A stretch of DNA of 64,000 bases from the NCBI GenBank assembly GCA_030683815.1, contig JAUXPJ010000012.1, positions 62,001 through 126,000 of the forward strand, written 5' to 3'. The notes below the pieces were generated by a model that saw only the letters and a list, made by a program, of their open reading frames with translations, was not told the DNA's origin and ran no database searches. This DNA comes from Flavobacteriaceae bacterium. Lineage in GTDB: Bacteria > Bacteroidota > Bacteroidia > Flavobacteriales > Flavobacteriaceae. Numbering within the stretch: the first letter of the stretch is position 1; each line of letters opens with the position of its first letter. Positions 10,560 through 27,277 of the stretch are shown here, one piece after another. Made by a program: the position numbers and the translations under genes.

Positions 10560-11720
10560 CTAAAATTCAATATTTAAAAAATCTTCCAATCCACAAACCA
10601 CAACTTCCTTGGTTAGGTCATAAGAGCCAGAAATTGGAGTTATGACAAAGGATTTTTGTGGTTGTACTACAGCTAAAGCACGCCAAAAACCTTTGGTTAA
10701 TTTTGGTGTCATAGATGCTTTGCATTCTATTACTATTCGTTGATTTCCTTTTTCCAATATCAAATCCAATTCGTCTCCAGAGGCAGTTCTGTAAAAATAA
10801 TAATTCCAGTCTGGCATATTCACGATAACATTTTCGATCACCACGCCTTCCCAAGACGACCCAAAAATAGGATTTCCCAGTAATGAATTATAATCTGGGA
10901 TAGCCAATAATTGATGTAATAATCCTGAATCCCGAACAAACACTTTGGGTGATTTGACCAATCTTTTCCTGACATTTACTTCAAAAGGAAGCACGGTTCT
11001 CAAAATAAAAGTTTGCTCTAACAAATCAATATAGCGTTTAATCGTAGGATGTGTCAATCCCAAAGACTCGCCTAATTTTGAATAATTGAGCAACTGTCCT
11101 TGGTTGTGGGCACACATCATCAAGAGGCGTTTGAGTTGCAAGGCAGGAATTTGAAAACCCAGTTGCGGAATGTCTCTTTCTATAAATGTTTTGATAAAAT
11201 TATCTCTCCAAATGCTACTAAAAGCATCATTTTCGGACAAATAGCTGTCTGGAAAACCACCTCTTAACCAGAAGGTATTCAAGTTAAAACCTTCTAAAAG
11301 GTTAAGTTCATTGAGTGTAAAGGGCGATAAATAAATCATCCCTATTCTTCCCGCTAAACTCTCGGAAGTTTGCTGAATTAAATCTCTTGAGGCAGATCCT
11401 AAAAGGATAAATTTTCCGTTTTGCCTGTTTTTATCTACAACACTTCTCAAAACGGAAAACAAATCTGGGGCCAATTGAATTTCGTCCAGACAAATTATTT
11501 TATCGGCATTGGATTCAAAAAAAAGGATTGGTTGGTTTAGTTTACTTAAATCGGCATCGTTTTGTAAATCAAGATATAAGGAATCACTCCAATTTTTAGT
11601 CAATGATTTGACCAAAGTAGATTTTCCGCATTGTCTTGGTCCTAAAACCGCAACAACGGGAAATATTTTAAGATACTGACAAACAATATCTTCTGCTTTT
11701 CTTTTTATAAAGTCATGCAT
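10560..11720 (-). CDS. AAA_14 / DUF4143 ATPase (cargo gene 1)
   Basis: ATPase of 386 residues, a family very common in Bacteroidetes and without a settled function. Walker A GPRQCGKST (27-35), Walker B IICLDEIQ, sensor-like LLGSASRDL, then a winged-helix stretch (about 190-245) and a C-terminal DUF4143 region with DELDLIL...VIECKA, which matches a PD-(D/E)XK nuclease-like core. It has no evident role in sugar synthesis yet lies inside the polysaccharide operon: its stop codon abuts the neuA start with no gap, and 247 AT-rich bp separate it from the upstream methyltransferase. ATG start. A toxin-antitoxin, defence or selfish role is conceivable but unproven. Confidence 0.88.
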   Translation of the reverse strand: MHDFIKRKAEDIVCQYLKIFPVVAVLGPRQCGKSTLVKSLTKNWSDSLYLDLQNDADLSKLNQPILFFESNADKIICLDEIQLAPDLFSVLRSVVDKNRQNGKFILLGSASRDLIQQTSESLAGRIGMIYLSPFTLNELNLLEGFNLNTFWLRGGFPDSYLSENDAFSSIWRDNFIKTFIERDIPQLGFQIPALQLKRLLMMCAHNQGQLLNYSKLGESLGLTHPTIKRYIDLLEQTFILRTVLPFEVNVRKRLVKSPKVFVRDSGLLHQLLAIPDYNSLLGNPIFGSSWEGVVIENVIVNMPDWNYYFYRTASGDELDLILEKGNQRIVIECKASMTPKLTKGFWRALAVVQPQKSFVITPISGSYDLTKEVVVCGLEDFLNIEF

Positions 11721-15407: not shown

Positions 15408-15919
15408 TTATTTTAATAAAACATCTAAAAAAGATAGATTGAATTTTCCTTTTTTAAACCAATACAACAATACTTTTTTCTTTTGAATAAAAGTATATCC
15501 TTTTAATTTAGAATTCAATTTAAAATCAAAGTATTTTTTTAATTCTATTACTCTTTCGTTATTATAAGTTTTAGCGCTTAAATAAAAACAATATCATAAC
15601 TTTCAAAAGCAATATTTTTTATTATTTTTTTGTATTTATTCTGGATGTATTTTTCTTTAAGAGATTGATGAAATACTCGCCAATATATTTTATTAATCCA
15701 TTTTAATATAAATGGAATCTCACGATTCATTAAATATTCATCTAATGAATTTATAGGAAGAATCTTAATTTGTTGGTCATTAACATCACTTTTAAAATAG
15801 TGCACATCAATAATAGCATCTTGAAAACATTCTCGCAATTTACCAATAAAAGAGCGTGAAACAATGCCTTCACTTGTCCCTGAAATACGCAAATCCTGTA
15901 CAATGATCAAAAACTTCAT
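15408..15919 (-). pseudogene. Broken glycosyltransferase gene (internal deletion or fusion)
   Basis: The 5' part (15578-15919) encodes 113 residues starting MKFLIIVQDLRISGTSEGIV, the start of a GT4-like protein, and stops after ESYDIVFI. Such proteins normally run to 350-400 residues. Immediately after the stop, in another frame, 15408 to about 15575 encodes a glycosyltransferase-like tail (TYNNERVIELKKYFDF ... SFLDVLLK) with its own stop. So about 200 codons are missing between head and tail, or two different genes were fused by recombination. The product is presumably inactive. Confidence 0.75.
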
Positions 15920-16828
15920 CTAATATCTTCTTTTTAAAACAGATTTATAAACTTTCTTCAAAAAAACAAAATACCTCCTAAATTCATAATTTACAAAATA
16001 TAATCGAGTTAATTTAATCCAATAATTTCCGTTTTTTTTATTATCTAAGAAACTTTTTTCCAATGCATCATATAAAATAATCTTCTGATAAAAATCAAAG
16101 TAAGTTAATTTATTACTTATCAAATAATAATAATACTTAAATGTTGCCAAGTTTTTTAAAATTAAATTGTCTAATCTACTTGAAATATTGATTCCACTGG
16201 AGCGGACAAATACAAATGATTCATTAATCGAATAAATAGAACAAAAGTTGGAAAACTCTAATATTGCTAAAACATCAGAATGCCAAGCCAATGGAAAATC
16301 TTTAAATCGAATATGCTGCATTGTTTCTTTTCTAAATACAAACTCACTTAAAGAGCTTCTTGTACCACCATTTAATTTTCTAAACAAAAAATCGATAGAT
16401 TTTTCTATTTTTGGATTAAAATATGGAGCTGAAACTGTCTTATCCACCTCATTAATTTTTGTAGTAGCATATCTAATTACATTAAGTTTTAACGCTTCAA
16501 TTTCTTTTAAATTTTCATAAAAAGCTGCCACACAATTATTTTCCAACACATCATCATCTCCTAAAATCATTATCCATTCTTCATTACCTGTTATAGCAAT
16601 ACATCGTTCCCATTGTTTCACCAAAGATGTTCCACCTAAATTGGTTTCAAATCTATGGTAATGAAAGTCAAATTTAGCCTGGTACTTTTCCAATAAACCA
16701 GAAGGATTTTCCGGACTTGCATCATCGCCAATATACACTTTAAATTGCTGATTTGTTTGATTAGCCAAGGATTGCAATGTGGCTTCAAAAAAAGTAAGAT
16801 TGTAATATGGAATGACGATGGCGAGCAT
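15920..16828 (-). CDS. Family 2 glycosyltransferase (MLAIVIPYY type)
   Basis: Protein of 302 residues starting MLAIVIPYYNLTFFEATL, with GDDASPENP (34-42) and WIMILGDDDVLENN (metal-binding DDD, about 95). It is the only intact member of a set whose 5' ends recur as relics at 18191-18259, 19558-19655 and 26387-26420. A run of seven T at codons 12-14 could slip. The C-terminus is basic. It starts one base upstream of the broken glycosyltransferase. Donor and acceptor unknown. Confidence 0.88.
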   Translation of the reverse strand: MLAIVIPYYNLTFFEATLQSLANQTNQQFKVYIGDDASPENPSGLLEKYQAKFDFHYHRFETNLGGTSLVKQWERCIAITGNEEWIMILGDDDVLENNCVAAFYENLKEIEALKLNVIRYATTKINEVDKTVSAPYFNPKIEKSIDFLFRKLNGGTRSSLSEFVFRKETMQHIRFKDFPLAWHSDVLAILEFSNFCSIYSINESFVFVRSSGINISSRLDNLILKNLATFKYYYYLISNKLTYFDFYQKIILYDALEKSFLDNKKNGNYWIKLTRLYFVNYEFRRYFVFLKKVYKSVLKRRY

Positions 16829-16922
16829 TGATTTTTATTTTTTAAACTAACTCATTCTACCTGAATACTATTTGTTATTGCAATGTTACAATGATCAAAT
16901 AAAGTCTTTCTTTAAACATTTT

Positions 16923-18113
16923 CTAATACAAAAACCCAAACAGCCACAAGGGAATATTTACAGCTGTTCCTATTTCTATATCGTCTTTTACAAGATAAGA
17001 ATTCTTATAATTTTTGATTTGTTGTTGCTTTTTGTTTTTCCCACCCAATTCAAAATAATAAGTATCATCTACTTTAAAATCAACAGGTTGTGCGGCATAA
17101 ACGGCACTTACTTGGCTGAGTTGATTGAGAAAGAAAGTTTCTCCTATTGAACCTATTTCTGCATCCTTACCGAGATTAAACATCAAATTTGGGTTATTTA
17201 AAAATATTTTTTCGGGTTTACCCAAACTATTAATCCCTTTATCTTCAACATATAATAAATTTAAAAGCTGGGCATCATTCAAAAGTTTTAAATAATTTTT
17301 CATGGTGTTTAAACTGATTCCTGTACGTTCGCTGATTGAATTCATATTGGGTTTAAAAGGTACAGAATTACTGATAACCGACAATAATTTTTTGAGCATT
17401 ACAATATTTGCGGTTTGAATAAGCGCATACTGCGGTATGTCAACTTCTAATATGGTAAGCAAAACTTCGCTTAATTTTTGATGAAATGATTTTTTGTTTT
17501 CCAGATAAAACGGATAATAACCGTGATGTAAATAGTCTGTAAAATATTGCAATGGTTTTACTTTTTGGGTAATTTCAATACTGATGGCTATATGATTTTC
17601 AACAATTTCTTTGACCGAATAGCTGTTGAAATTTATGTTGGTTTCAAATTGTATAAACTCCCTGAATGATAATCCCGGCATATCATATAATACAACACGT
17701 CTGCTTAAATCTGCCTTTGCTTGATGGATGTGCAACAATGATGAGCTTGTAAAAACAATTTTTAAATGAGGCATATCATCATAAATATTTTTGATTTCTG
17801 AGTCCCAATTGGGGTATTTGTGTACTTCGTCTATGGCAATAAATTGACCTCCTTTTTTATAAAAATCATACACCAAATCATATAAATTGTTTTCGAGAAA
17901 ATACAAATGATCCAAGCTAATGTATAAAACACTTTTATCAGGTTTATAATTTAACCGAATATATTGCAACAAAAGCGTTGTTTTCCCTACTCCTCTACTT
18001 CCTTTTATGCCAATAAACCGATTGTCCCAATCAATGGTTTTTATAAAATTTCTTATATGATTGGTCTGTACAAGTGCATACTTTTCATAAAATTGACTGT
18101 ATAATTTTTGCAT
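16923..18113 (-). CDS. AAA_14 / DUF4143 ATPase (cargo gene 2)
   Basis: ATPase of 396 residues. Walker A GSRGVGKTT (38-46), Walker B FIAIDEVHKYP, sensor VFTSSSLL, a SRRVVLYDM loop and a middle winged-helix region (ERTGISLNTMKNYLKLL). The C-terminal DUF4143-like part has VDFKV...YYFELGGK, where the usual ExK is E-L-G-G-K. It lies 94 bp upstream of the intact glycosyltransferase at 15920, with a truncated copy of that gene's start on its other side (18191-18259). It differs clearly from the other three ATPases in the locus, so it is not a recent duplicate. Function unknown. Confidence 0.87.
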   Translation of the reverse strand: MQKLYSQFYEKYALVQTNHIRNFIKTIDWDNRFIGIKGSRGVGKTTLLLQYIRLNYKPDKSVLYISLDHLYFLENNLYDLVYDFYKKGGQFIAIDEVHKYPNWDSEIKNIYDDMPHLKIVFTSSSLLHIHQAKADLSRRVVLYDMPGLSFREFIQFETNINFNSYSVKEIVENHIAISIEITQKVKPLQYFTDYLHHGYYPFYLENKKSFHQKLSEVLLTILEVDIPQYALIQTANIVMLKKLLSVISNSVPFKPNMNSISERTGISLNTMKNYLKLLNDAQLLNLLYVEDKGINSLGKPEKIFLNNPNLMFNLGKDAEIGSIGETFFLNQLSQVSAVYAAQPVDFKVDDTYYFELGGKNKKQQQIKNYKNSYLVKDDIEIGTAVNIPLWLFGFLY

Positions 18114-18190
18114 AAAATCTTTTTAGCTAAGGTATAGAATATATCAATACGTTGATACTTTTTTTATGTTTTTATATCAATCTATTAATA

Positions 18191-18259
18191 TATATTAAAA
18201 TGATTGCAACGTAGCTCAAAAAAAGTGAGTTTATAATATGGGATGATGATGGCGAGCAT
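18191..18259 (-). pseudogene. Relic of a glycosyltransferase 5' end
   Basis: Reads MLAIIIPYYKLTFFE, the same start as the intact gene at 15920-16828, then loses frame by a single-base deletion (GAGCTACGTTGCAATC against GAAGCCACATTGCAATCC) and stops. It begins two bases after the stop codon of ATPase 3. Confidence 0.85.
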
Positions 18260-18261
18260 AA

Positions 18262-19473
18262 TTAAATTTTAGATAAAAGAAAACTTCGCAAATCTACAGT
18301 TGCAATTCCTTCATAAGTGTTTCCTGTAAAAACATCCATCGTAATCACGGTTTTGGGGTAATTGTCGTTAATATTTTTAAGATTGCCAAACTCCCGTTCC
18401 AAAGTTTTTGTGTCATTGATACTCAACGCAACTTGAATATATAGTTTTTCGCCTTCTTTTTCTGCGATAAAATCTATTCCACGAACGCCCATAGTACCTA
18501 CAACTACTTTATATCCCATATAGCGTAAATGATTATACACTACATTTTCTGCTATTTTACCTCTATCTTCCAAACGATATCCCCATAAAGCATTGCGAAT
18601 ACCCAAGTTTTCGAAATAAAATTTTTCTCCAATTTCAAAAATCCTTTTTCCAATCATATCATATCTAACTACTTTACTTATTAAAAAAGCATTCACCAAA
18701 TATTGAGTATATATTTGCACTTGATTAGACGGCATTTTGATATGTTGTGATTTTAGAAAATCACTGATTTTTTTAGCAGAAAAAACACTTCCAATATGAG
18801 CTGCCAAAAACAATACCAATTGTTCTAAAAAAGGCACATTACGAACCGAATATCTATTGATGATATCTCTATAAACAATGGTGTTGTATATATTTTTTAG
18901 GTATTCAAATACAATGGAATCCTCTAATGGCAGATGTTTAAGATAGGGCAATCCGCCAAATTTTAAATATTTTTCTAAACTTTTTTGATGGTCTTCTAAT
19001 TGATGAAATTCCAAAAATTCGATATAGGATAAACTATATACTATTATTTCAATATACCTTCCACTTAAATAACCGGCAATATCACCCGATAATAAATTGG
19101 CATTGCTCCCTGTGCAATATATATCCAACTCCTGATGCAATAACAAAGAACGTAAAGCGGTTTCAAAATTGATAATATCCTGTATTTCATCAATAAAAAC
19201 ATAGGTTTTTTTATGAGTGGCTTTGTTTTTAAGAACATAATCTTGTAAATCCTGCGCTGTTTTAAGAAAAGAAAAAGCCAAATCTTCTTTGTTGATGTAT
19301 AAAATATGGGCATTTTTTTCTTGATGCTGTATCAATTGGATGAGTTGAAACAGCAAAAAACTTTTTCCCACACGCCTTTGTCCTGTAAATACTTTGATTA
19401 TATTTTTTCCCACAAAAGGTTGTACCCTATCAATATAGGATAAGCGAGTGATGATATTTTCAGGAATTTGCAA
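18262..19473 (-). CDS. AAA_14 / DUF4143 ATPase (cargo gene 3)
   Basis: ATPase of 403 residues. Walker A GQRRVGKS (31-38), Walker B YVFIDEIQDI, sensor IYCTGSNANLL, then the DUF4143 region (about 200-400) with GIDFIAEKEGEKLYIQVA, where the usual ExK is replaced by QVA, so a nuclease-type site is probably lost. The start is a TTG; no in-frame ATG lies near, and an upstream TAG limits the frame. Relics of glycosyltransferase starts lie on both sides (19558-19655 upstream, 18191-18259 downstream). Function unknown. Confidence 0.85.
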   Translation of the reverse strand: MQIPENIITRLSYIDRVQPFVGKNIIKVFTGQRRVGKSFLLFQLIQLIQHQEKNAHILYINKEDLAFSFLKTAQDLQDYVLKNKATHKKTYVFIDEIQDIINFETALRSLLLHQELDIYCTGSNANLLSGDIAGYLSGRYIEIIVYSLSYIEFLEFHQLEDHQKSLEKYLKFGGLPYLKHLPLEDSIVFEYLKNIYNTIVYRDIINRYSVRNVPFLEQLVLFLAAHIGSVFSAKKISDFLKSQHIKMPSNQVQIYTQYLVNAFLISKVVRYDMIGKRIFEIGEKFYFENLGIRNALWGYRLEDRGKIAENVVYNHLRYMGYKVVVGTMGVRGIDFIAEKEGEKLYIQVALSINDTKTLEREFGNLKNINDNYPKTVITMDVFTGNTYEGIATVDLRSFLLSKI

Positions 19474-19557
19474 GGCAGAAGTTTTAGATATATTTATAAC
19501 TTTGCGTAAATATATAAAATGTTTTAGATATGGCTACAACTTTTTATCAAATTATTG

Positions 19558-19655
19558 CTATACTTTTTAAATTATTTATCAGTTTGATTAGCTAACGATT
19601 GTAAAGTTGCTTCAAAAAAATTGAGTTTGAAGTATGGAATGACGATGGCGAGCAT
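19558..19655 (-). pseudogene. Relic of a glycosyltransferase 5' end with T-tract frameshift
   Basis: Reads MLAIVIPYFKLNFF, then a run of eight T shifts the frame; with seven T it continues EATLQSLANQTDK. The first 23 bases are identical to the start of the intact gene at 15920-16828, and weak similarity continues for about 95 bp. It begins four bases after the glycosyltransferase ending at 19660. Confidence 0.88.
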
Positions 19656-19659
19656 TTAT

Positions 19660-20574
19660 TTATTTTCTAAATTTAGTAATTACTTTTTTTAAAATTTTAT
19701 TTGGGTTTTTATAATTGGTTTGAATATATTTTATTTTTCTAAAAAAAATATGATTCAAAATAAAATAACCATTACATTGATTGGATAGAAGATTTGTTAA
19801 GCGATTAACTGTTTGCAATTGTCTATTTAATATAATTTTTTTTATTTCTTCATTTTTAAGATAAAAACCTAAACAAGTAAATAATTTTAGGTTACTATTG
19901 ACTTTTTCTAAGCTTGAATTTCCTGAAAAGAAACCATCACCATATCTATACACCCCCATATTTACTCCCAAATATTTCAATTTACCTTTTTCTGCAAGCA
20001 TCATATATAAAAAATAATCTCCAATTGGTGTATGTTTAAATTCAAATGGGAATTCTTTAATAATATTTCTAAAAACTACAGACGGTGTATGAATGTAATT
20101 ACCTAAACGCGCCAGTGTTTCTATTGTTTCATAATTTTCTGGTACTTTTGTGATAAAATCTGACACAATTTCACCGTTTGTTTTTAAAATATTAACCTGA
20201 TGAAAACATAACACATAATCCAGATTCCCCTCCAAAAAATCCACTTGTTTTTGCAGTTTAAGCGGATTGGTCCAATAATCGTCACCTTCGCAAAGTGCAA
20301 TATATTTTCCTTTGCATTGTTGCATCGCCCAAATAAAATTGGGCATCATTCCTTTATTTTGGGGGTGATTGGTGTATTTTATCCATGAGCGATTTGGATG
20401 ATTTTGAATAATTTCTTGTATAACTGCATCGGTTTTATCGGTAGAGCAATCATTGGCTAAAATGAGTTCTACTTCAAAATTGCATACTTGCATCAAAACG
20501 CCGTTTATAGCTTCTGCTATATACTTTTCATGATTGTAGGTAATCATGCAAACGCTTAGGGTTGGTTTATTCAT
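19660..20574 (-). CDS. Family 2 glycosyltransferase
   Basis: GT2 enzyme starting MNKPTLSVCMITYNHEKYI, with ANDCSTDKTD (about 40-49), ALCEGDDYWTNP (metal site, about 92) and the block HTPSVVFRN; about 304 residues. The ATG at 20574 is preferred over an upstream TTG, since MNKPTLSVCMITYN is the family start. The start overlaps the end of ATPase 4 by 8 bp (ATGAATAA). A second, truncated copy of this gene's start lies at 22209-22250. It probably adds a sugar to the surface glycan; specificity unknown. Confidence 0.88.
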   Translation of the reverse strand: MNKPTLSVCMITYNHEKYIAEAINGVLMQVCNFEVELILANDCSTDKTDAVIQEIIQNHPNRSWIKYTNHPQNKGMMPNFIWAMQQCKGKYIALCEGDDYWTNPLKLQKQVDFLEGNLDYVLCFHQVNILKTNGEIVSDFITKVPENYETIETLARLGNYIHTPSVVFRNIIKEFPFEFKHTPIGDYFLYMMLAEKGKLKYLGVNMGVYRYGDGFFSGNSSLEKVNSNLKLFTCLGFYLKNEEIKKIILNRQLQTVNRLTNLLSNQCNGYFILNHIFFRKIKYIQTNYKNPNKILKKVITKFRK

Positions 20575-21901
20575 TTTTAAAATCAATTAAATCAATAAGT
20601 TCTTTGGTATAATCTGCCATAAAGTGTGGGATATTTAACAATCCGTCTTGATAAGACAGGTTTTTCAAAGAATATTTAATTCGAAGTGCAGGTTGATGCT
20701 TTTTGGCATAAAAGGTTAAACTTCGGCTTCTGACATTTTCATCGGCTTTTACTTCTATGGGGATGATTTCATTTTTAGATTGAATGATAAAATCAACCTC
20801 TGCTTCATTTCCAGATGTCCAATAGCGTGGCATTACTTCAAATTGCGGAATTAAACTTTGCAAAATATAGTTTTCCAAAAGTGCTCCTTTAAATTCTACA
20901 AAAAGCCGGTTACCTTCTGTAAAAGCAATGGCATCTAATTTTGACATTTTACGCAATATGCCTACATCAAAAACATAAATTTTATAAGCACTTAAATCAT
21001 CGTAGCCCGATAAGGGCAGTTTTGGTGTTTTACACAACGAAATTCTATATACCAAACCTGCTTGTTCTAACCAACGTAAGGCATCTTCATATTCTCTTGC
21101 CCTTGCGCCTGGTTTTACCAATTGATAAACAAATTTTTTGTTTTCCCTTCCTAATTGTGAAGGGAGCGAATGCCATACATAACCAATTTTAGCGATATCT
21201 TTCATGATTGGATGTTTGGCAAAATCGAGTTCATAAGAACGAATTAAATCATTCAAAACTTCATCTGCTCTGAAAAAATCTTTGGTTTCCAAAAAAGTTT
21301 GCGCAACTGCTGGCAAGCCACCCGTAATTAAGTATTTTTTAAAATTTTCTTTAATTGATGAAAAAAAGAGGTCTGGAATAGGTTCAATTTTATTGATTTT
21401 ATGGAGGTAATTTGCTAATTTTGAATCGCATTGGGCTAAAAATTCGGTAAAACTAAGCGGATAAAGATTTAAAAATTGCACCTTGCCTACTGGAAATGAT
21501 TGGGCTTGACCCAATGTAATTCCTAATAAAGAACCTGCACTAATGATATATAATTGAGGGAAGTTTTCATAAAAATATTTAAGTGCATTAAGTGCCTGAT
21601 AGCATTCTTGAATTTCGTCAAGAATAACTAAGGTATCGGTATCTATTAGTGCACCATGAACAATAGATAAGTTTTCTAAGATGCTGTGAACGTCTTTGGT
21701 GTTTTCAAAAAATTGTGCAAGTTCTGGCCTTTCATCAAAATTAAAATACGCAAATTTCTTAAAATGCTGCGTTCCTAACCATTTCATTAAATAGGTTTTT
21801 CCTACCTGACGAGCACCATTTAACAGTAGCGGTTTATGATTTGGTGACGCTGTCCAGCGGATTAAATCAGTTTCTAAAGTTCTTTTAAATAGATAACTCA
21901 C
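20567..21901 (-). CDS. AAA_14 / DUF4143 ATPase (cargo gene 4)
   Basis: ATPase of 444 residues with a GTG start. Walker A GARQVGKT (29-36), Walker B LVILDEIQECYQ, sensor IISAGSLLG, a helical middle and C-terminal DUF4143 with EAEVDFII...IPIEVKA, a well-kept PD-(D/E)XK-like core. This is the subfamily closest to the common Bacteroidetes ATP-binding proteins. Its last codons overlap the start of the glycosyltransferase at 19660-20574. A relic of a similar glycosyltransferase start lies 300 bp upstream, so the ATPase is bracketed by related sequences. Function unknown. Confidence 0.88.
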   Translation of the reverse strand: MSYLFKRTLETDLIRWTASPNHKPLLLNGARQVGKTYLMKWLGTQHFKKFAYFNFDERPELAQFFENTKDVHSILENLSIVHGALIDTDTLVILDEIQECYQALNALKYFYENFPQLYIISAGSLLGITLGQAQSFPVGKVQFLNLYPLSFTEFLAQCDSKLANYLHKINKIEPIPDLFFSSIKENFKKYLITGGLPAVAQTFLETKDFFRADEVLNDLIRSYELDFAKHPIMKDIAKIGYVWHSLPSQLGRENKKFVYQLVKPGARAREYEDALRWLEQAGLVYRISLCKTPKLPLSGYDDLSAYKIYVFDVGILRKMSKLDAIAFTEGNRLFVEFKGALLENYILQSLIPQFEVMPRYWTSGNEAEVDFIIQSKNEIIPIEVKADENVRSRSLTFYAKKHQPALRIKYSLKNLSYQDGLLNIPHFMADYTKELIDLIDFKNE

Positions 21902-22208: not shown

Positions 22209-22250
22209 TTAATAGGTAATCATGCAAACGCTAACTTTGGGATTATTCAT
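22209..22250 (-). pseudogene. Relic of a glycosyltransferase 5' end
   Basis: Reads MNNPKVSVCMITY then a stop, matching the start of the intact gene at 19660-20574 (MNKPTLSVCMITYNH). It begins one base after the stop codon of the acetyltransferase gene, at the place where a full glycosyltransferase gene would be expected. Confidence 0.87.
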
Positions 22251-22251
22251 T

Positions 22252-22899
22252 TTAAAAGGATAAGGGTTCCAAATTTTTGATTATTTTGGCCGGAATCCCA
22301 ACTGCCACACAATTATCCGGCAAATCTTTTGTAACAACGGAACCTGCACCAATAATAACGTTTACACCAATTTTAACATCTGGCAAAACAGTAGCATTAG
22401 CTCCAATTTGCGAAAAAGAACCAATCTCACATCTTCCCAATAAAGTAACACAAGGAGAAATTTCTACAAAATCTCCAATTTTACAATCATGTGTAATAAT
22501 TGAATTGTAATAAATAATACATCCTTTACCAATAATTAAACTATTTGATAAAATAGCACCTGTGAGTATATTAGTTCCTATTCTAATTTGATTTCCATAA
22601 TGACCAATAGTTGCCAACGGACTGATGGTGGAAGTAAACGCTCCACCTAAAGCGGTAAATTTATCATATAATTGTTTTCTTAAAACCGGATTTCCAATCC
22701 CAATAGTAAATTGGTTATCGATGGTTTTAAAATAGGTTGTTGCTTCTTGAGCGGTTCTTAAAACAGGAAACTGACCAAATAATTTTTCTGGCACATCGTC
22801 ATTTACATCGTCATAAAAAACCAAGTTTTTCAATTGATTTAATTGGTGTACTACCTCTAAAACTTCTTTGGCAAAACCCTTGGCTCCAATAATTAGCAT
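22252..22899 (-). CDS. NeuD/PglD-like sugar O- or N-acetyltransferase
   Basis: Protein of 215 residues: an N-terminal Rossmann-like PglD_N domain (MLIIGAKGFAKEVLEV, 1-80), then a left-handed beta-helix of hexapeptide repeats (about 85-205) with the catalytic-type His in SIITHDCKIGD and the end GSVVTKDLPDNCVAVGIPAKII. It uses acetyl-CoA to acetylate a sugar. With neuA and neuB nearby it may be NeuD, the sialate O-acetyltransferase; a PglD-type role on a 4-amino sugar is equally possible because an aminotransferase gene (now broken) lies upstream. It starts three bases after the AlbA_2 gene. Confidence 0.86.
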   Translation of the reverse strand: MLIIGAKGFAKEVLEVVHQLNQLKNLVFYDDVNDDVPEKLFGQFPVLRTAQEATTYFKTIDNQFTIGIGNPVLRKQLYDKFTALGGAFTSTISPLATIGHYGNQIRIGTNILTGAILSNSLIIGKGCIIYYNSIITHDCKIGDFVEISPCVTLLGRCEIGSFSQIGANATVLPDVKIGVNVIIGAGSVVTKDLPDNCVAVGIPAKIIKNLEPLSF

Positions 22900-22902
22900 A
22901 AT

Positions 22903-24396
22903 TTATTTTTTTGTGTCATTTAAGATTTCCCAATAGCCACCTTTGGCAGCTCCCACTCTTGTTAAAATCATCATTTTAATTAATTTCCTAATGTTTTCTT
23001 GTGTTTTTCTTTGAGAGATACCGACTTTCAAAGCTAATTCTCTTGATGAGATATACTGATTTTGGCTCATCAATAATAAAATATGCTTTTGATTATTGCT
23101 TAATTTATCTACGACCTTTTCTGCGACCTTATCTGCGACCTTTTCTACGACCTTATCTACGACCTTATCTACGACATTATCTACGACATCGGTGACATTA
23201 TCGGTGACATCGGTGACATTATCTACGACATTTTTCACGACATCTTTCACGACATCAGTATTTATTAGTTTTTCTTTGAATAATAGGATTCTAAATCCAT
23301 TGAATACTTCTTCTATCTTGGGTCGAATAATTCCGTATTCTTCACATATATTCAGTATTCTTCGAATTCCAGATCCATAACGTTCAATCATGCCCACTTC
23401 TTTGAACGCTTTGGCAATTAGCTTATTTCGAGCTTGGGACGTATAATTATTGGACAATAAATTTTCTATGGTTATGCCTCCAATTAATTTGCCGGGATTA
23501 TAAAATTCAATTCGGTCATCAAATATTTTAATAATAGACGCCGAGCTGTCTCTGTAATCTCTATGCACTATCATATTGATCACTATTTCGCGAATGGCGT
23601 CGAGCGGATAATCAAATCGTTCTATATGTTGCGGTTCGCCTGTAATGATATATTCTACCATTAAATGCTTTTTTATAAAGGCAATAATGGCATCGGTTTC
23701 GGTAAATAAATCGGTGCTTAAAGTGAGACTGTCAATGATTGTAATGTCACTTTTAAAACGCCCAATTTGAACATCGCTTATAGAACAATATTCTTTTGCA
23801 AATAAAAGATACGCTCCAAAAGTGAGTTGGTTATTTCTTATCATTTCCAATTTTGATAAAAAATCTAACGGAGGCAATTCTATCGTGTTTTGTGTCCTCT
23901 GTTCTATCTTATGGATAAAACTCTTTATTTTTTCAACAGAAATAGTTTCAATGCTATGAGAGGTGTCAGGGTAGAAATCCCAACTGCTATTGATGGTTTT
24001 AAGATGTTCGTTGCTAATTTCTTCAACATTTAACAAATGATTGGAATTGGCAGTACGCTTGAAGTATTTGTTTTTGTATGAAACGGGTTTTATGGGATAT
24101 TCTATAATTTTAAAAACAACAATCGTTTTTTGATCTAATTCAAAAAGTTCAACATCGGGAATTATTTGGGGAACGGTATTTTGTTTAATTTCGTTTATCC
24201 AATTAGCAATGCTTTCATCCGATATGTTTACGCCTACAATTTTTTTGCTGTCATTTACCCCAATAAGGACAATGCCGCCTTTGGTATTTGAAAAAGCTAC
24301 AAGACTCTCTATTACTTCTTTTGAAAATGAAGTTTTAAATTCTGCTTGTTCGTTTTCGCCCTGATTGATACTATTTTGTATGTCTTGTTTATTCAT
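22903..24396 (-). CDS. AlbA_2 (Schlafen-like) / HATPase_c_4 regulator-like protein with valine-rich repeat
   Basis: Protein of 497 residues of the COG2865 type. N-terminal AlbA_2 domain (about 10-130; EQAEFKTSF, LVAFSNTKGGIVLIGV), a HATPase_c_4 ATP-binding domain (about 245-375; IREIVINMIVHRDYRD, ERYGSGIRRI), then a 52-residue tract (381-432) with a four-residue period of the type VVDK, and a C-terminal winged helix (about 433-490; SSRELALKVGISQRKTQENIRKLI). The family is usually described as putative transcriptional or RNA-linked regulators. It has no sugar role and looks like cargo in the polysaccharide locus. Its start overlaps the aminotransferase relic upstream by 8 bp. Confidence 0.86.
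   Translation of the reverse strand: MNKQDIQNSINQGENEQAEFKTSFSKEVIESLVAFSNTKGGIVLIGVNDSKKIVGVNISDESIANWINEIKQNTVPQIIPDVELFELDQKTIVVFKIIEYPIKPVSYKNKYFKRTANSNHLLNVEEISNEHLKTINSSWDFYPDTSHSIETISVEKIKSFIHKIEQRTQNTIELPPLDFLSKLEMIRNNQLTFGAYLLFAKEYCSISDVQIGRFKSDITIIDSLTLSTDLFTETDAIIAFIKKHLMVEYIITGEPQHIERFDYPLDAIREIVINMIVHRDYRDSSASIIKIFDDRIEFYNPGKLIGGITIENLLSNNYTSQARNKLIAKAFKEVGMIERYGSGIRRILNICEEYGIIRPKIEEVFNGFRILLFKEKLINTDVVKDVVKNVVDNVTDVTDNVTDVVDNVVDKVVDKVVEKVADKVAEKVVDKLSNNQKHILLLMSQNQYISSRELALKVGISQRKTQENIRKLIKMMILTRVGAAKGGYWEILNDTKK
23101..23256. repeat. 12-bp tandem repeat encoding the V-x-x-(K/N/D) tract
   Basis: On the coding strand the unit is close to GTCGTAGATAAG, repeated about 13 times with drift. 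It encodes residues 381-432 of the AlbA_2 protein. The repeat stays in frame with any whole-unit gain or loss. Confidence 0.85.
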
Positions 24397-24505
24397 TAAT
24401 AATAGGCACTATTTTTTGAACATTTTCTATTGTTAATTCTGCATATAAAGGTAAACATAAAATTCTTGCAGCAATACTTTCTGAAATTGGCATTGTATTA
24501 GTCAT
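24389..24505 (-). pseudogene. Relic: 3' end of a DegT aminotransferase gene
   Basis: Reads MTNTMPISESIAARILCLPL then YAELTIENVQKIVPIINE and a stop. It aligns without gaps over 35 codons to the end of the truncated aminotransferase at 25428-25532 (about 21 of 34 residues identical). It sits between the BRO-N gene and the AlbA_2 gene. Confidence 0.88.
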
Positions 24506-25337
24506 TTAAATTTTTCTTATTCTGAATTACTGAAAGTTGTAAGAAGTTTTGACTGCTTACTATTTTTTTGCCTGATTTTTGTTCTAAATCTTTTCGGGCT
24601 TTACCTGCAACGCTTCCTCCTGCTTTGGCAGCTTTATGATTCTCGACAAAGCCTTTGGAGTTTTTATTCTTGGCGATTTCAGTGGTTGATGCTTCGCCCA
24701 ACATAGTAAAAATGAGTTCCAAGTCGGTCATGTGGTCTCGGAGATTTTCAGATGCTTTTGTTAATCCCTTTAGTTTTTTATAATCGCTTGGTATTATGCC
24801 AAATGTTGCTTTGCTAATTTCTGCAGTCAAAATAGCATATTCTTTACCTTCTTTAACGCCTCTTTGTTTCCATTCGCTGGTTAATTCATCACGTACAAAA
24901 ATGCCACGAATGCGCTTTTCTATCCATTCATCGCTATATCCTTTGGCTTTGTAAGTGGCTCTAATACGGGCTTGTGCCAACTCTGGATTTTCAATTTCAG
25001 CAATTCTATCGGCTCCCACTTGTGCTAACCATTGCTTGAATGGTTCTGCTTTTGGAGATGGAATGGATTGGATAATTCGCAACAATCCTTGTTTGGTAGC
25101 ACAATCAGTAGCATATTTTTTACCATCACTGGACACTAATTTCAGTTGTCGACAAATTGTCGATAACTCAAACCCTGAAACTTTTTCACGCTTTTTCATT
25201 CTGTACCAATAGTCTTTTGGATCGCTGCTATCTGTTAAAACGGCTACTACATCTACCACCGCAAAATACCATTCTTGCTCTTCTTCGTTCCAATCGGAAC
25301 GAATTTGTTGGTTTTCAAATAATTTTAAATTGGTCAT
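24498..25337 (-). CDS. BRO-N domain (phage antirepressor-like) protein
   Basis: Protein of 279 residues. N-terminal BRO-N domain (about 1-105; QIRSDWNEEEQEWYFAVVDV, DPKDYWYRMKKRE, CATKQGLLRIIQSIPSPKA), then a helical part (about 115-230) with LELIFTMLGEASTTEIAK and a basic tail (HKAAKAGGSVAGKARKDLE). BRO-N proteins are DNA-binding and occur in phages and as single chromosomal genes in Bacteroidetes. Inside the sugar locus it is clearly foreign: related copies of an aminotransferase 3' end flank it, 90 bp upstream and within five bases downstream. Its start context is 90 bp of AT-rich DNA. Confidence 0.86.
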   Translation of the reverse strand: MTNLKLFENQQIRSDWNEEEQEWYFAVVDVVAVLTDSSDPKDYWYRMKKREKVSGFELSTICRQLKLVSSDGKKYATDCATKQGLLRIIQSIPSPKAEPFKQWLAQVGADRIAEIENPELAQARIRATYKAKGYSDEWIEKRIRGIFVRDELTSEWKQRGVKEGKEYAILTAEISKATFGIIPSDYKKLKGLTKASENLRDHMTDLELIFTMLGEASTTEIAKNKNSKGFVENHKAAKAGGSVAGKARKDLEQKSGKKIVSSQNFLQLSVIQNKKNLND

Positions 25338-25427
25338 ATATTATTTGGTTTCTATTTTTTACATTCTTATTACAAAAAAATTCTCAAATTCTAGAACTCA
25401 GTTTAGGTGATGTAATTTTTAGTCTTT

Positions 25428-26141
25428 TTACGTATTTATAACACTTACAATCTTATTTAAATCCTCATTTGATAATCCCACATATAAAGGTAAACATAAA
25501 ATGCTTGAGGCAACACTTTCAGAAATAGGCATCACTTTTCCTTTGGTATATTCAATGGTGTTTAATGACGGATAAAAATAGCGACGCGGAAGAATCTCAT
25601 TTTCTTTCAAGGCTTTTTCTACTCTAAGAAGTTGGGCTTCGTTTTCAAAAATGATGGGATAGTAACTGTAATTCCACACTGTATTTTTTCTGATTTTGAT
25701 GCTTTTAAGTTTTGAAAAATCTAACTGTTGATTGTAATAATCGACCACTTTTTTTCTTTCGACCAGTATGTCTTTCATATAAGGCAAAACTGCCAAACCC
25801 ATAGCTGCCTGCAATTCAGACATTTTTCCGTTAATTCCCAATCCATAAAAAGCCAATGGGCCGTTGTGTCCAAAATTATGGCTGTAAAACAATTGCTGTT
25901 GCAAATCAGCATTATTTGTAAACATGGCGCCGCCTTCGGCAGTATGAAAAAGTTTTGTTGCGTGAAAACTACAAGTACTTATATCACCATTATTAAAAAT
26001 AGATTTTCCTTTGTAATTTACCCAAAAACTATGTGCCGCATCATAAATTACTTTTAATTGGTGCTTTTTTGCTATGGTTTCAATAGCTTCCACATGACAC
26101 AATGCCAAAACCAATCTGATAAAAAAACAGCTCTTACACAA
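25428..26141 (-). pseudogene. 5'-truncated DegT/DnrJ/EryC1 sugar aminotransferase
   Basis: The reading frame encodes 237 residues, but only the C-terminal two thirds of a roughly 370-residue PLP-dependent sugar aminotransferase is present, beginning near VEAIETIAKKHQLKVIYDAAH. The PLP lysine block SCSFHATKLFHTAEGG-like is kept, as is the complete 3' end. The first 13 residues (MCKSCFFIRLVLA) are not aminotransferase; they read through the RAYT transposase relic. The usual AAHAFGV motif is changed to AAHSFWV, which also suggests decay. The intact enzyme would make a 4-amino-4,6-dideoxy sugar, a natural partner for the acetyltransferase at 22252. Confidence 0.82.
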
Positions 26142-26275
26142 AGAAATAGTTTGGTCATTATTTCCATAATTTCTCGCACTACTGTATTTCCAATCTATTG
26201 ATTCTTGATCAACGAGCTAGAAGCTCGCGCTAGCGGGGGGGTATAGTACTATCAATTACTTTATATTTCTCCGAC
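26103..26275 (-). mobile_element. Degenerate RAYT (REP-associated tyrosine transposase) with REP-like palindrome
   Basis: On the minus strand MSEKYKVIDSTI, resembling the start of Bacteroidetes RAYT proteins, is followed by a GC-rich REP-like palindrome (26213-26238, GAGCT/AGCTC and CGCTAGCG) and then by DQESIDWKYSSARNYG, resembling the RAYT C-terminus. The HUH catalytic core is missing. The remnant joins the truncated aminotransferase. Assignment rests on remembered family motifs. Confidence 0.6.
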
Positions 26276-26386
26276 ATTTTTTATAAAAAATAATTTATTT
26301 TTGATTTGTCGCGTTTCAAACGCTCTATTTATTTTATCATTGTAGTAGGATCTCGATGCAACCGAGCACCAGAGAGGGGGAACAAA

Positions 26387-26420
26387 TATATTTGTAATAT
26401 GGAATGATGATGGCGAGCAT
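26387..26420 (-). pseudogene. Relic of a glycosyltransferase 5' end
   Basis: Reads MLAIIIPYYK and then diverges. Its ATG overlaps the stop codon of the upstream glycosyltransferase (TAATG). Downstream it runs into the REP/RAYT remnant, so the original gene was destroyed there. Confidence 0.82.
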
Positions 26421-27277
26421 TATTTAACAATTTTATTAATCAACGCTTTAAGCATTGTTTTTAATTTAATCGGAGTTAATGTTTGTTTATTATTTTGTGA
26501 GTACTTCAATATAAAATCTTCGACCGAATCTGAAGAAATAAAATTTAACTTATTCCAAGCCTTCGGTGAAATTGGGTGGATATCCTTATAATTTTTATAA
26601 TTAATGATATTTAAATTTTTCCAAAATTCAAAATAACTTTGTGTATCAAAATCATCACGATGACCCCAATTATCTATTTTCATTTTGATTTCTTCTTCGG
26701 TACGAGCCCAAGATTGATGAATGACATTAATATTTGAATAATGATTTCTAACTTTATTATTATTTCTGGTAAAAGTATAATTCGATTGATTGGTAATAAA
26801 TGAAAACCGTTCATTGTTTTCAATATATAAGTAACCTTCAGGAAGTTGCCGATACAATGTAACCAATTTACCTCTAAAAACAATGGGGGTTAATTTTGGG
26901 AAAAGAGTTAAATACCAATATTTCTTTAAATATTTTGCTACTTTTTTAAAATCATAAATATATTCATCTACATCTAATTGAATTTTCCAACCTCTTCCCA
27001 TTTTATTTAATAACAAATTCCGTTCTCTTGTCTCGCATTCAATAGGTGATAAATCGGAAACATAAAAAGTATCAAAATAAAATTCAATCTTATTTTTTAT
27101 GTCATATTGCTTTACTTCATCAAAAAAGGAAGCCGGTATTTCGAATTTATTACCACTCCAAGTTTTTCTTTCTTTATCAATTGCAACAAATATTTTATTT
27201 ACATAATTGTAAAGCTGTTTTACAGAAGTTAAAAACATTGAATAATCATATGAAACTAAATATCCAACTTTAATCAT
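26420..27277 (-). CDS. Glycosyltransferase-like protein (GT-A, DVDEY type)
   Basis: Protein of 285 residues starting MIKVGYLVSYDYSMFLTSVK. It has GWKIQLDVDEYIYD (about 95-108), the acidic motif used for metal binding in GT2-related enzymes, and a VIHQSWARTEEEI block typical of these families. No membrane segment. It overlaps the upstream gene by four bases (ATGA), so the two are translationally coupled. Donor and acceptor unknown. Confidence 0.75.
   Translation of the reverse strand: MIKVGYLVSYDYSMFLTSVKQLYNYVNKIFVAIDKERKTWSGNKFEIPASFFDEVKQYDIKNKIEFYFDTFYVSDLSPIECETRERNLLLNKMGRGWKIQLDVDEYIYDFKKVAKYLKKYWYLTLFPKLTPIVFRGKLVTLYRQLPEGYLYIENNERFSFITNQSNYTFTRNNNKVRNHYSNINVIHQSWARTEEEIKMKIDNWGHRDDFDTQSYFEFWKNLNIINYKNYKDIHPISPKAWNKLNFISSDSVEDFILKYSQNNKQTLTPIKLKTMLKALINKIVK

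Follow-up and report, generated by a model that had tools for sequence, protein, structure and literature searches.

Single ATPase and Bro-N genes between diverged copies of neighbouring gene ends in a Flavobacteriaceae polysaccharide locus and in related genomes

The stretch analysed here (the window) comprises 64,000 nucleotides of a Flavobacteriaceae bacterium (GenBank assembly GCA_030683815.1, contig JAUXPJ010000012.1, positions 62,001 to 126,000) and contains glycosyltransferase genes among which AAA_14 ATPase genes and one Bro-N gene occur singly. Three of the ATPase genes and the Bro-N gene, which we call cargo, each lie between direct, diverged copies of the end of a neighbouring gene, and the stranded short copies are called relics. 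All genes concerned are on the minus strand and are listed from right to left, beginning behind the gene at 26420-27277; an AlbA_2 gene and then an acetyltransferase-like gene stand between the DegT relic and relic E. ORF denotes an open reading frame.

26376-26420, minus strand: relic D, in which the MLAIVIPYY glycosyltransferase start occurs a fourth time (ATG at 26420), overlapping the stop of gene 26420-27277; 33/35 nucleotides match glycosyltransferase C
26144-26204, minus strand: what is left of a Y1_Tnp (RAYT) gene, 61 bp from its C-terminal end; congener G002 (locus L014) has this gene whole at the corresponding position; 3 mismatches in 61 aligned nucleotides
25428-26141, minus strand: DegT aminotransferase ORF without its N-terminal part (Pfam DegT_DnrJ_EryC1, 3.3e-44, profile positions 125-359 of 360)
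24498-25337, minus strand: Bro-N gene, cargo (Pfam Bro-N, 3.8e-12; PADLOC PDC-S13, 1.4e-125)
24382-24493, minus strand: relic of the DegT 3' end, a diverged direct copy including the stop codon (score 80, best shuffle 37)
22212-22257, minus strand: relic E, the start of the glycosyltransferase beyond ATPase 1 (at 22250; MNNPKVSVCMITY and then a stop); 38/45 nucleotides match
20567-21901, minus strand: ATPase 1, AAA_14 and DUF4143, cargo (Pfam match; PADLOC PDC-S01)
19660-20574, minus strand: intact family-2 glycosyltransferase (Pfam Glycos_transf_2), its start duplicated in relic E
19556-19667, minus strand: relic A, MLAIVIPYY glycosyltransferase start (ATG at 19655) with one in-frame stop, aligned to the start of glycosyltransferase C
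18262-19473, minus strand: ATPase 3, AAA_14 and DUF4143, cargo (Pfam match; PADLOC PDC-S01)
18198-18259, minus strand: relic B, MLAIVIPYY glycosyltransferase start (ATG at 18259) lacking 1 bp, immediately behind ATPase 3; 53/62 nucleotides match
16923-18113, minus strand: ATPase 2, AAA_14, cargo (Pfam match; PADLOC PDC-S01)
16829-16922, minus strand: 94-bp leader of glycosyltransferase C, read from the sequence
15920-16828, minus strand: glycosyltransferase C, intact family 2, MLAIVIPYYNLTFFE (ATG at 16828; Pfam Glycos_transf_2, 9.5e-12)

The first-pass annotation of this locus had proposed that ATPases 2 and 3 are bracketed by diverged direct copies of a glycosyltransferase start, and this holds. 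In local alignments with the start of glycosyltransferase C, relic A scores 124 (81% over 108 nucleotides, ungapped; best of 500 base shuffles 34), relic B 77 (best shuffle 31) and relic D 58 (best of 300 shuffles 35), while relic E scores 55 against the glycosyltransferase start at 20574 (best shuffle 32). Each relic thus beats every shuffle. Beyond what had been annotated, ATPase 1 has the same anatomy with another glycosyltransferase start, and the Bro-N gene has a copy of the aminotransferase 3' end on either side, positions 25420-25532 at the 3' end of the DegT ORF being the counterpart of the relic on the far side. Chance repeats as the source of the window copies are excluded by the shuffles and by the control ORFs described below. 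Tandem amplification of the ATPases, which the annotation had also argued against, is rejected because blastp clustering of 34 ATPases puts ATPases 2 and 3 in separate subfamilies. ATPase 4 (10560-11720) shares no repeat with a neighbouring gene and is therefore not another gene-end case. Its own start region recurs in front of the gene (at about 11743 and about 11917), each time with an imperfect palindrome, which is perhaps an operator or the trace of an earlier copy.

Relatives of the locus show the same junctions in other states. In congener G001 (L013) the glycosyltransferase follows directly after the gene preceding it, and this uninterrupted junction is the ATPase-free allele that the annotation had suggested looking for. 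Another cargo at the junction is seen in congener G002 (L014), where a relative of gene 26420-27277 is followed by a glycosyltransferase-start relic, an intact RAYT gene (matching Pfam Y1_Tnp), the leader and a related glycosyltransferase. About 50 bp of the leader of glycosyltransferase C recur ahead of the latter gene when compared by eye, and relative to L014 the window has about 9 kb extra between the RAYT remnant and the leader. Glycosyltransferase C and its L014 relative are more alike over the first ~90 codons (83, 78 and 76% in the first three 30-codon blocks) than over the body, and the remainder of the L014 gene is closest to L013. Judged from these alignments, the gene start therefore seems to have travelled apart from its gene body. 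The argE-argH junction (names deduced; L189, L260, L261) behaves similarly: the two genes are adjacent in congener G377 and separated by different cargos in G130 and G139, so that the junction is empty in one genome and elsewhere holds a Bro-N gene with a further gene, or a 23S_rRNA_IVP gene.

Two further ORFs were noted beside glycosyltransferases of the same genome. At 15578-15919 of the window, a 113-amino-acid ORF resembles the N-terminal remnant of another glycosyltransferase and ends before the next glycosyltransferase gene, with no adjoining cargo gene. On contig 23 (L018:1118-1501) a chimaeric ORF precedes a glycosyltransferase of the same family; in it, an ABC permease-like start is fused to the middle of a relative of window gene 26420-27277.

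Several glycosyltransferase-start copies in one locus, with such chimaeric or truncated genes nearby (L018; window 15578-15919), could also have arisen by decay in place, if tandem paralogous glycosyltransferases lost their bodies and the ATPases arrived independently. We regard this as very improbable. Full glycosyltransferases between the ATPases, the arrangement that would point to such decay, were seen in none of the six glycosyltransferase relatives fetched. Moreover, the same anatomy is found at queG, at the argH lyase gene, at a pseudouridine synthase gene and at a tRNA, and decay of tandem glycosyltransferases is inconsistent with these housekeeping-gene cases.

The generality of the arrangement was surveyed with AAA_14 ATPases from the window's own genome, 100 genomes of its family and 90 of its class, for which part of the matches were fetched, and with the 30 best Bro-N loci from 149 genomes of the class; many of the named genomes are metagenome-assembled. 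Flanks of 450 bp on each side of an ORF were compared and a repeat was accepted at a score of at least 44. Other ORFs of at least 150 amino acids in the same loci served as controls. Weak AAA_14 loci (L008-L011), ORFs with less than 150 bp of flank and duplicate proteins were left out before counting, and L229, which itself overlaps an AAA_14 match, was counted with the ATPases and not with the controls. Direct repeats of any kind flank 30/159 ATPases and 1/355 other ORFs (p = 1.5e-15). They also flank 7/29 Bro-N genes (p = 5e-8), and they were found at 1/72 ORFs in the loci fetched for the single-gene comparisons. Without the window's own genome the excess persists (26/152 ATPases, p = 1e-13). 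Inverted repeats, taken as a further control, reached the threshold at 7/158 ATPases and 0/356 control ORFs.

A narrower automatic rule recognized gene ends where one copy lay inside the near end of a neighbouring ORF and the other outside ORFs, with at most three copies and no palindrome. It selected 9/159 ATPases and 2/29 Bro-N genes, against 0/355 and 0/72 controls (both cargos pooled, p = 2e-6), and 6/152 ATPases when the window's genome was omitted (p = 3e-4). Dispersed and palindromic flanks were kept in the repeat counts and excluded from these gene-end counts; the former label applies to L042, L053, L087, both L106 genes, L128, L201, Bro-N L180, L313, L343, L347 and L349, the latter to L068, L120, L213 and L335. 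Gene ends added by hand were the pseudouridine synthase start at L082, L004 (ATPase 3 between two relics), the tRNA end at L025 and, for Bro-N genes, L192 and L180, which the automatic rule had classed as dispersed (4 copies) and which reads by hand as a gene start. The link between ATPases and gene-end junctions that the annotation had drawn thus has a strong statistical excess behind it in other genomes, and is limited neither to gene starts nor to ATPases. Separately, the AAA_14 genes of L120, L213, L128, L053 and L068 carry similar palindromes of ~40-60 bp at both ends, which may be operators, terminators or the unit ends of another group of ATPases.

The duplicated gene ends belong to the following genes, whose families were named by Pfam match and otherwise read from the sequence; figures are matching over aligned nucleotides.

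L027, 5' end: sugar transferase start, 136/147
L001, 5' end: start of a gene with no Pfam match, 113/127
L082, 5' end: pseudouridine synthase start, 72/73
L189, 5' end: start of a lyase read as argH, homology from the exact ATG, 51/53
Window and L197, 5' end: glycosyltransferase starts, L197 92/124
L236, 3' end: queG end, 101/121
L024, 3' end: response regulator end, 39/44
L043, 3' end: 45/58
L085, 3' end: 52/62
L300, 3' end: AAA_28 gene end, 186/213
Window, 3' end: end of the DegT ORF, with its diverged copy past the Bro-N gene
L025, 3' end: tRNA end and following sequence, 87/90

Over all cases the flanking repeats measure ~45-240 bp and are ~74-99% alike, and the 5'-type relics are short (45-147 bp). 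In 7/10 of the 5' cases the homology begins 0-5 nucleotides ahead of the ATG; the exceptions are relic A and ATPase 1, where it begins further upstream, and L197, where it begins inside the gene. The earlier suggestion that single-gene cargo moves among surface-polysaccharide loci proves too narrow, as queG, response regulator, argH, pseudouridine synthase and tRNA sites are occupied as well. At L314, a relative of the L001 ATPase precedes the ATG of the same gene by 16 bp; no flanking repeat was found, which is the form expected of a donor. L180 has a Bro-N gene between two start copies of one gene, with a DNA methylase-like gene before it and a KilA-N-like gene after it; from its gene content this could be a series of cargos like that of the window, perhaps within a restriction operon.

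If a relic were simply a decayed copy of the present intact end, outgroups should carry the intact base at 75% or more of the sites where the two differ. We scored such sites by outgroup state and found relic:intact sharing of 11:9 for queG, 4:6 for L001 (11 of 16 orthologues usable), 11:6 for relic A and 6:1 for relic B. The sum over the 54 scorable sites, which are few and not independent, is 32:22 (P = 1e-7 against 75% intact), and outside the window it is 15:15 (P = 0.003 against 75%). The queG relic is 87.5% identical to congeners L238 and L239, to which the intact end is 81.0 and 82.6% identical; for a third congener, L240, the values are 86.7% (relic) and 88.4% (intact end). Differences between relic and intact copies are distributed over codon positions as 15, 9 and 46, and from this excess at third positions (46/70) it follows that both copies probably diverged while coding. 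The relics are alleles in their own right and not the product of decay from the present intact end; the polarity result does not make the relic the more ancestral copy. The annotation's point that the diverged copies are not fresh target duplications is borne out for these four relics, where the outgroup polarity rejects copy decay.

A transposition that duplicates a long target site (50-240 bp), one copy then decaying, was weighed against the same data. The near-identical repeats at L082, L189 and L025 would suit it, as would homology that starts so regularly at the ATG, as if at a fixed site. Yet the four tested relics behave as separate alleles and not as an identical target-site duplication: outgroups share the relic base as often as the intact one, and the queG relic is closer than the intact end to two of three congeners. 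The unit consists of a leader and one ATPase ORF, with no transposase in it, and no terminal inverted repeats were seen by eye in L032 and L093. Transposition therefore seems quite unlikely.

The edges of the unit were read from chosen pairs of related ATPases, each aligned under three settings. The closest pair, L032 and L093, encodes proteins with 96% amino acid identity (1525/1605 nucleotides, 95%) that have different neighbours at unrelated sites, one genome being in the family of the window and the other only in its class. Under all three settings the two agree from -133/-125 to +23, and the repeats of L032 end at -138 and begin at +18, so the edges of this pair are sharp. L027 and L345 agree from -44, which is the edge of the L027 relic, in three of three settings, and ATPase 2 and L270 agree from -85, the edge of relic B, to the stop codon in two of three. 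In L025 and L032 the repeats enclose no ORF of notable size besides the cargo, and no site-specific integrase accompanies it there.

These edges bear on the most general rival, that the pattern is a common footprint of horizontal acquisition by homology-facilitated illegitimate recombination, homologous at the shared gene and illegitimate at the other end, with passive cargo and with ATPases and Bro-N genes merely being frequent late arrivals. It accounts for the relic alleles and the serial layers, and the same idea appears, in the part of the source available, as a proposal for serial displacement of type VI secretion system (T6SS) effectors in Vibrio (PMC5361080). The variable cargo at one junction (Y1_Tnp at L014, 23S_rRNA_IVP at L261, a further gene at L189) and the chimaeric ORF at a glycosyltransferase junction of the same genome (L018) also agree with it, and the IVP and RAYT samples do not differ significantly from the ATPase and Bro-N samples. 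Illegitimate ends should however be arbitrary, yet the edges meet the repeats in L032/L093 and L027/L345, and do not in L025/L026. Furthermore, the 5'-type relics stay short although any length up to that of the gene would serve, and ordinary ORFs show repeats in only 1/355 cases. We consider this explanation possible but doubtful.

We favour, with a probability of roughly 55%, the reading that these ATPase and Bro-N genes are units of one gene each, lacking an integrase, which gain entry by recombination and supply a gene end in place of the resident one. A short leader and the ORF would make up the unit, with its end at the stop codon or close to it, and it would enter a new genome joined to an adjoining piece, the end of a host gene. 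Recombination within that gene end would splice the incoming end onto the resident gene body, which makes the gene whole again, and the resident's own end would be stranded on the far side of the unit as the relic. The ~45-240 bp repeats would then flank the unit because the incoming end restores the gene and the old end stays behind. Recombination between the two copies would excise the unit with one gene end and restore the empty site. In the window, such entries may have occurred in series, giving relic E-ATPase 1, relic A-ATPase 3 and relic B-ATPase 2-glycosyltransferase C, with the Bro-N gene at the aminotransferase 3' end. Entry by recombination, an intermediate that is either circular or linear, and reversibility are inferences. 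Homologous or homeologous recombination at the gene end is a putative route that fits the allele pattern and the edges, and neither an intermediate nor a donor-recipient pair was seen.

Several results weigh against this proposal of integrase-less units. Firstly, 129/159 ATPases have no flanking repeat, and many of the 30 repeats are not gene ends, as the automatic rule yields nine and the rest are palindromic, dispersed or unclassified. When ATPase subfamily I was scanned (564 relatives found, of which 80 loci were kept), repeats occurred at 18/78 ATPases but also at 9/189 controls; clear gene ends are few, namely L300 and, read by hand, a terminator copy at L336, while the automatic match L277 is weak. 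Secondly, the edges do not always coincide with the repeats. The segment that L025 shares with L026 runs from -109 to -1, outside which the L025 repeats lie at -298 and +161, and the relics of ATPase 1 and L085 end ~300 bp upstream. L027 and L311 agree only from -20 and ATPase 2 and L271 only from -37, and for ATPase 3 and L042 the settings decide whether similarity sets in at -72, at -229 or within the ORF. Edges in diverged pairs could be mimicked by loss of similarity outside a conserved promoter, an objection from which the L032/L093 pair is free. Thirdly, other cargos show repeats too in small samples (IVP 2/29, RAYT 7/25), and one RAYT gene, that of congener G002, does occupy a gene-end junction. 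No gene end was readable among the 29 IVP and 25 RAYT cargos sampled, where the repeats were REP-like or simple sequence. Cargo specificity is unproven, since gene ends at 11/188 ATPase and Bro-N genes against 0/54 IVP and RAYT genes give p = 0.13. Lastly, polarity alone does not favour the relic (two-sided p = 0.22 for the sum, and L001 runs the other way), and local duplication would fit the near-identical argH and pseudouridine synthase copies as well.

All four window ATPases exceed the Pfam cut-off for AAA_14 and match PADLOC model PDC-S01 (best E-values 5.6e-28 to 6.4e-164); DUF4143 is above its cut-off in three of the four, ATPase 2 scoring 21.4 where 28.1 is needed. The predicted model of ATPase 2 (pLDDT 90.6) is nearest to Cdc6/Orc1 and the archaeal Walker-type ATPases 2qen and 2fna, with modest TM-scores (0.32-0.53). 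A sequence search of the PDB returned mainly P-loop proteins, and a search of NCBIfam with the ATPases gave no match. In the accessible part of PMC12988326, S01 is described as an ATPase with a fused domain of the PD-(D/E)XK superfamily and ranked as the fourth most common defence across prokaryotes, and the PDC candidates are said to come from a guilt-by-embedding screen and to be mostly unvalidated.

More tentatively, PDC-S01 ATPases and Bro-N genes might be self-promoting elements, whose putative nuclease-like or recombination-modulating proteins would stimulate homeologous recombination. Host gene ends would then serve as portable attachment sites, entry and exit would leave no trace, and the embedding in operons would be a product of the genes' own mobility; we hold this to be possible, although rather unlikely. 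If genes of this sort insert themselves at the ends of many kinds of host gene, embedding is weak evidence for defence, and a plentiful group of mobile units without an integrase has been catalogued as something else. Single genes could in this way be spread over operons that stay unbroken. Our data suggest that such genes reach operons of varied kinds through an insertion route of their own or of the host, which weakens embedding as evidence for defence without excluding that function. Mobility could thus confound the nomination of PDC-S01 and PDC-S13, which rested on their embedding in defence systems. A literature search that did not extend to bioRxiv or most subscription journals found no paper that ties these ATPase or Bro-N families to mobility.

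Prophage e14 in icd and islands at the 3' ends of tRNA genes are integrative elements that replace the end of a host gene, and they carry an integrase and several genes. The cases described here resemble them in that a version of the gene end is brought along, the displaced end lies on the far side and the host gene stays functional: in the queG, argH, glycosyltransferase and tRNA cases an intact end stands on one side and a displaced end on the other. They differ in having one ATPase or Bro-N gene, no integrase and widely varied targets. The PDC-S01 and PDC-S13 candidates (PMC12988326, PMC13356809) are matched by the window ATPases and the Bro-N gene; the accessible parts of these papers mention frequent transfer, and neither single-gene units nor gene-end copies, while the genes studied here sit in polysaccharide and housekeeping operons. 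The free-standing homing endonucleases of T-even phages are likewise single genes beside their target that spread by recombination with co-conversion of the flanks, although no duplicated gene end is described in the part of PMC2988022 available. Two observations here may bear on co-conversion: the intact queG end is less like two of three congeners than the relic is, and glycosyltransferase C and L014 are more alike over their first ~90 codons than over the body. In serial T6SS effector displacement, as far as the available part of PMC5361080 goes, successive incoming modules also leave ordered remnants; the remnant there is an immunity gene, whereas here it is a gene end of 45-240 bp.

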